Shown piece after piece: positions 36,232 to 37,413 of a stretch of 64,000 bases of DNA. Location: positions 1 through 64,000 of the forward strand of contig RQOG01000150.1 in NCBI GenBank assembly GCA_003854985.1, read 5' to 3'. Both the position numbers and the translations under genes were made by a program. Position 1 is the stretch's first letter, and each line of letters begins with the position of its first letter. Below the pieces are notes generated by a model. That model worked only from the letters and a program-made list of their open reading frames with translations. It did not search any database and was not told the origin of the DNA. The DNA is from Calditrichota bacterium. Lineage in GTDB: Bacteria > Calditrichota > Calditrichia > Calditrichales > Calditrichaceae.

Positions 36232-37413
36232 TTATTTTAATTTTTTATATACCTGAATGAATATTTCTATATTATATCCGGAATCCCAGAAATTTTCTGT
36301 TTCTAATTTTATTTTATTTTTTTTACACCATTTTACAATTGTTCCGGTCTTAAATCCCAGCCATAAATCCTTCATTTGATCGGCAAGCTCGTGATTTCGA
36401 TGCCTGTTAAAATCGATGATAACTATTTTCCCTGCCCTTCTTACCACTCTTGCTGCTTCATTTATGGCTCTCTCCGGGTCAGCGAGATGATGAAGAACCA
36501 GGGAAAAGAAAACAACATCAATTTGTTCCGAACCCAACGGAAGATAATAGGTATTTGATCTCACCGGCATAAAATTACCCGAAGTAATCGGACTATTTAT
36601 AGTTTTGGCAATTCTAAGCATGCTGTCGTTTAGGTCCAGTGCGATAATATTTGCTCCGAGATTCAGGAAATGGTTGGCCCAGGTACCCGTTCCACAGCCT
36701 ATGTCCAAAACTAATCTGCTTCTCAAATCTCCAAGAATATGCCTGACTTTTGTGAAATCTGTTTCCTTGATAAACAGGTTTTGCCATTTATTCCAGTCAT
36801 TTCGGATGTGATGAAAAAAAATCTGGCTCTGCTGCTCAATCGCTGAAAATAAGTTTTCACTTAAATCGAACGAATTTATAAACCGGCCCAGATCATCCAG
36901 ATTAAAATCTTTTGATTGTTCTGAAAACCAGTCTGGTAATAATTGTAATGTAACATGCTTTTTTAATAATGACCGGCTCCTTTTAAGCAGCGAAGTGATA
37001 GCGCTTTCGGATAGTTGGAGCATATCGCTTATTTCCTTATAGGACCGGCTTTCTATTTCCCTCAACCTGATAATTTCCCGATGCCGGTCAGGAAGCTTAT
37101 CAAGCGCCCTGGTGATGATCAAATCAATATCATCAGATTTTATTTCGCTGATCAGCATGGATTCGCTCAGTTCTTCAAATTCTCTGCGTTTTCGTTCGCG
37201 AAAATAATTTATAATCCGGTTTCTTGCCACCGTTATTAACCAGTTTTTCAAAGAACGTTCGGGATCAAGTTTATCCAGATTGACTATGGCCTGAAGATAA
37301 ACATCCTGAAATAAATCTTTGGCTAAATCCGCATTGCCTACGGCATTTTTTATTAAACCGTAAATCTCAGCTTCATAGTCGTGCAACCTGTTCCATAGGT
37401 TCTTTTTGTTCAA
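36232..37413 (-). CDS. ECF sigma factor fused to a SAM-dependent methyltransferase domain
   Basis: One uninterrupted reading frame holds two domains. N-terminal: sigma-70 region 2 ([20 protein letters not shown] through [17 protein letters not shown]) and region 4 ([20 protein letters not shown], then [18 protein letters not shown]), an ECF-type factor for promoter recognition. After a helical linker (~165-225) comes a class I methyltransferase: motif [16 protein letters not shown] (Asp237), acidic strand-2 end IALDLNDSM, and [21 protein letters not shown] place the start at TTG 37413, with AGG five bases before it; the frame stays open to an ATG at 37527 but those 38 residues look non-coding. 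ahcY follows. A SAM- or SAH-responsive regulator is my inference. Confidence 0.85.

Follow-up and report, generated by a model that had tools for sequence, protein, structure and literature searches.

A fusion of an ECF sigma factor with a SahR-type methyltransferase domain precedes ahcY in Calditrichota and may govern SAH clearance

The 64,000-nt stretch of Calditrichota DNA analysed here (the window) contains a gene, sigMT, in which an ECF sigma factor is fused to a methyltransferase (MTase) domain, directly upstream of the adenosylhomocysteinase gene ahcY. We propose, with somewhat better than even confidence, that SigMT controls SAH clearance as a one-component ECF sigma factor gated by a metabolite; its ligand, the direction of its response and its use of a promoter are what we infer from the comparisons set out below. 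The gene and its parts are as follows.

36232..37413, minus strand: sigMT, ECF sigma factor fused to SahR-type MTase domain, 393 aa; start codon TTG 37413 uncertain
37183..37380, minus strand: sigma region 2, residues 12-77 (Pfam PF04542)
36961..37119, minus strand: sigma region 4, residues 99-151 (Pfam PF08281/PF04545)
36235..36846, minus strand: SahR-type MTase domain, about residues 190-393 (Pfam PF08241, profile comparison, alignment)
36685..36705, minus strand: motif I, putative SAM/SAH site, D237-IGCGTG (sequence)
36351..36414, minus strand: signature common with SahR-type ArsR-MTase proteins, residues 334-354 (alignment)

The sigMT frame (36232-37413) has zero internal stops, and Pfam matches account for all three parts of the protein: Sigma70_r2 (E-value 3e-14), Sigma70_r4_2 (4e-12, residues 99-149) and Methyltransf_11 (2e-20, residues 236-332). 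This agrees with the original prediction of a single frame encoding sigma regions 2 and 4 and a class I MTase, and motif I lies at residue 237 as predicted, with D237-I-G-C-G-T-G legible in the translation. The protein has sigma regions 2 and 4 only, without region 1.1 or 3, and scores 95 bits against the TIGR02937 sigma70-ECF model (cut-off 42.9), so that by Pfam and TIGR02937 it falls within the sequence definition of an ECF factor. Structure prediction gave a model of SigMT with a mean pLDDT of 80 and a pTM of 0.65, for which the best PDB matches are class I MTases. The frame stays open further 5' (window 37414-37527, minus strand) as far as a GTG at 37527, beyond the promoter-like element described below, and the true sigMT start codon in the window is therefore uncertain.

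A fusion of this kind might arise from misassembly or from a frameshift joining two genes, and the window genome is a draft of 180 contigs. We give this explanation virtually no credence and reject it: among 60 whole genomes searched, seven further ones have full-length homologues (37-42% identity) and an eighth (G002) has one truncated by a contig end, and one of the carriers (G005) is assembled as a single 5-Mb contig. The fusion is thus not limited to this assembly. It is present in nine of 40 Calditrichota genomes, window copy included, the other copies being 36-42% identical to that of the window. Profile searches, first of 40 genomes of the class and next of the phylum, returned the same nine members both times, eight from the window's family and one (G024) from a different family within the class. 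Among 84,980 species genomes scanned by pattern, a method that requires short exact peptides and may miss distant fusions, full-length matches came from six records only: five titled Calditrichota or Caldithrix, and one titled Caldisericaceae but assigned to the window's family in the genome set. The latter record, JAGHBR010000387.1, matches like G012 of the window's family, and its title is probably wrong.

The association with ahcY holds for every member. In 9/9 genomes the two genes share a strand, with sigMT immediately upstream of ahcY at a distance of 14-287 nt; the remaining neighbours vary from genome to genome, and this arrangement counts in favour of the proposed role. The downstream part of the operon in the window comprises two features.

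34961..36217, minus strand: ahcY, adenosylhomocysteinase, 418 aa (translation, profile match)
about 34894..34933, minus strand: intrinsic terminator 3' of ahcY, CCGGAUGCG-loop-CGCAUCCGG-UUUUUAUUUUU

The encoded AhcY is a full equivalog of TIGR00936 (629 bits). Its likely ATG at 36217, with GGAAAGGAA upstream, is separated by 14 nt from the sigMT stop codon (36234-36232), and the predicted 14-nt spacing holds for this start; an alternative in-frame ATG at 36232 would overlap the stop. The terminator that had been predicted after ahcY is real. It is absent from the listing of a pattern scan with a loop limit of 8, probably because its loop is longer than that. Between sigMT genomes AhcY is 81-83% identical, against 36-42% for SigMT; the pair has therefore been kept through a long divergence, which also speaks for the proposal. 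On the other side of the account, ahcY is present in 37 of the 40 genomes of the class, most of which have no sigMT, so that the system is dispensable; in the genomes examined, unrelated genes lie upstream of such an ahcY. The gene order in the window is hypA, sigMT, ahcY, and sigMT has apparently been gained or lost at one site when this arrangement is set against that of G006. There (L083, G006:C146, 136-2757), hypB and hypA adjoin ahcY divergently, and no sigMT separates them from it. On a short contig stretch, G001:C332 1681-7373, matches to metF, to an additional, divergent ahcY and to an additional metK mark a second cluster of methyl-cycle genes.

Class I MTase folds bind SAM and SAH. 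We infer from sequence comparison that the C-terminal domain of SigMT would bind SAM/SAH for sensing rather than catalysis, and favour a sensor role because the domain carries the motif of ArsR-MTase fusions that head metF/ahcY/metH operons in Leptospira and Alphaproteobacteria. In a genome outside the class (G056), such a fusion precedes a metF-like gene and ahcY, and a metH-like gene lies beyond these. A search with this protein found ArsR-MTase fusions on large replicons, whose neighbours are given here from annotated records only: the gene lies directly before ahcY and near metH in Leptospira, before metF and near metH in Sphingomonas and Novosphingobium, and before metF in Sinorhizobium and Rhizobium. 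In a study of Ensifer aridi, sahR was deleted and the gene given as 1023 bp. The inner sahR primers match the S. meliloti ArsR-MTase gene, also 1023 bp, with one mismatch at the start and exactly at the end, and the published rhizobial SahR is therefore an ArsR-MTase protein. SahR is described as an ArsR-family repressor with SAH as its effector (PMC8877191, PMC4239095). The analogy with SahR drawn in the original prediction is thus stronger than claimed, as rhizobial SahR itself has a C-terminal MTase domain and the SigMT domain, by profile score and signature, is of that type.

Against a profile built from nine ArsR-MTase domains, the SigMT domains reach 103-144 bits, compared with 62-89 bits for eight other Calditrichota MTases, and the reverse profile behaves likewise; this greater closeness to the SahR type is a further point for the proposal. 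The signature D[FL]xxH-x10-[DH]x[RW]LGF, allowing small variations, occurs in 9/9 SigMT proteins, 9/9 ArsR-MTase proteins and 5/5 stand-alone relatives, and in 0/8 of the other Calditrichota MTases. The alignment also shows a shared N-terminal helix with Fx6W. In the MTase tree all SigMT domains fall on one branch (100/99), the deeper order not being resolved. The likeness to SahR extends to gene neighbourhood, with methyl-cycle genes including ahcY beside the ArsR-MTase genes and ahcY beside sigMT. The N-termini differ: SahR has the ArsR winged helix of a repressor, whereas SigMT has an ECF sigma factor. The class yielded no ArsR-MTase (SahR-type) fusion, and neither a SAH riboswitch nor any other Rfam element turned up at ahcY in the window or at the 19 ahcY loci scanned. 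Both absences favour the proposal.

The SAM site is largely kept in SigMT, in that the glycines of motif I, like the acidic residue that follows strand 2, are mostly conserved; two members have GSATG at motif I, which we count against a SAH-gated SigMT. A largely kept site would also suit a working methyltransferase, by which transcription would be coupled to modification and ahcY co-expressed only to clear the SAH so produced. Close stand-alone relatives do look like ordinary enzymes, and two of them adjoin an ECF sigma gene. We nevertheless consider catalysis unlikely to be the role of the domain: a single fused protein contributes little SAH relative to the whole cell, so that a dedicated ahcY would be hard to explain, and the same domain is found on an ArsR repressor heading methyl-cycle operons, with no known substrate there.

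The two stand-alone SahR-like MTases that lie beside a separate ECF sigma gene are at G014:C294 (L042) 1160-2648 and G031:C260 (L040) 2918-4324. They resemble SigMT in their close profile scores, in the signature and in the adjacent ECF sigma gene, and differ in being unfused, in their Cys-rich tail (CCxxSxCGC) and in not adjoining ahcY. Such a pair of MTase and separate ECF sigma genes is a possible unfused forerunner of sigMT. In the sigma-domain tree SigMT forms one clade, whose grouping with the ECF genes beside a stand-alone MTase is weak (82/76), and an origin from such genes thus remains a guess.

Upstream of sigMT, alignment revealed a conserved promoter-like element.

37432..37461, minus strand: promoter-like element GCGAAAGA-N16-GTATAT, read as -35 CGAAAG, spacer 17, -10 GTATAT (upstream alignment); putatively used by SigMT

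The pattern [GC]C[GA]AAAGA-N16-GTATAT recurs with identical spacing in all eight sigMT genomes that have upstream sequence, and CGAAAG-N17-GTATAT has the geometry of a -35/-10 pair. Over seven genomes the bipartite 12-mer of the element shows 1 mismatch in total, whereas none of 100 simulated sets had fewer than 16. Exact matches lie at sigMT in 8/8 genomes with upstream sequence; across 40 genomes, other exact matches are few and no commoner than those to a reversed-pattern control, and none lies at an ahcY without sigMT. No second copy was found in the sigMT-ahcY gap, and no RNA structure was predicted within the conserved element. Conservation far above chance, at sigMT only, again favours the proposal, and SigMT would then use CGAAAG-N17-GTATAT to transcribe sigMT-ahcY. 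As this recognition is read from co-occurrence alone, some other factor might bind the element while SigMT acts elsewhere, the link with ahcY then being simple co-transcription; the position of the element at the start codon is also odd for a self-promoter. Given that the element accompanies sigMT in 8/8 genomes and is never seen at an ahcY whose genome lacks sigMT, we regard the involvement of another factor as very unlikely.

Control over methyl-cycle genes had been part of the original prediction, and this part was not borne out by comparison of their upstream regions. No good match to the element precedes metK, metF or metH, and relaxed motif matches are no commoner than those to the reversed-pattern control. 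A wider methyl-cycle regulon was accordingly rejected, and the regulon of SigMT looks limited to sigMT-ahcY, in contrast to the regulons of SahR, which take in metH, metF and metK (PMC4239095). A candidate regulon of a single operon is a point against the proposal.

The placing of the element raises a further difficulty. In 6/8 genomes the putative -10 GTATAT abuts or overlaps the likely sigMT ATG, and in these six the alignment offers no further common start codon before region 2. A transcript starting 6-7 nt after GTATAT would therefore carry ahcY and lack the sigMT start codon, which also weighs against the proposal. In the window and in G024 the sigMT start codon lies downstream of the element, and start-codon loss does not apply. 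Either SigMT is made from an upstream-initiated transcript, its own promoter serving ahcY only, or the element is no usual promoter. A bolder version, which we hold tentatively and think more doubtful than not, is that SigMT is a SAH-gated sigma factor whose promoter, in most members, sits on the start codon of sigMT itself, the transcript yielding AhcY and not SigMT. If true, this would be a sigma-based feedback circuit unable to run away through positive autoregulation.

Sigma factors are usually controlled by anti-sigma proteins. Judged from ORF sequences only, no anti-sigma gene is recognisable beside sigMT at the nine loci; the lack of one had been noted in the original prediction, and it supports the proposal. 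In the mechanism that we favour, the MTase domain would take the place of a separate anti-sigma factor, binding SAH in competition with SAM and acting mainly as a sensor. A high SAH/SAM ratio would free sigma regions 2 and 4, or shape them into an active conformation, and the SigMT holoenzyme would transcribe the operon from CGAAAG-N17-GTATAT, so raising AhcY. Removal of SAH by AhcY would close the loop. That SAH activates is argued from the target being ahcY.

SigMT might instead sense SAM, or the lack of it, with ahcY raised at SAM scarcity to recycle homocysteine, since class I MTase folds accept either ligand. A relative of SahR, SamR, has been suggested to respond to SAM (PMC4239095). This reading seems to us quite unlikely, as every sigMT adjoins ahcY, whose product acts on SAH, no site is found at metK, metF or metH, and SahR, with the same domain, is described as SAH-responsive.

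SAH-gated control of SigMT would be unusual, as we know of few examples of direct small-molecule control of a sigma factor. No published ECF-MTase fusion was found in the open literature searched. A close known architecture is that of ECF sigma factors with a C-terminal extension, which likewise join an ECF core to a C-terminal domain thought to replace the anti-sigma factor. SigMT differs from these in that its extension is a SahR-type MTase, which is not mentioned as an extension in the available part of a 2022 ECF review; there, methyltransferase appears a single time, in reference to a gene neighbouring ECF122 and not to an extension (PMC8999054). SigMT is, in short, a sigma scaffold that carries a known sensor domain. 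The comparison also suggests that one sensor domain has served the same job on two scaffolds, that of a repressor and that of a sigma factor. In SigMT one can recognise the sensor domain, both its relatives (SahR) and its neighbour (ahcY) point to a likely ligand, and the candidate promoter is a single conserved site, making the idea testable with one protein, one promoter and two ligands.

Elsewhere in the window, a selenocysteine tRNA gene lies at 53354-53444 on the plus strand (Rfam RF01852, 73.9 bits), and hyp hydrogenase maturation genes are present in the same window.
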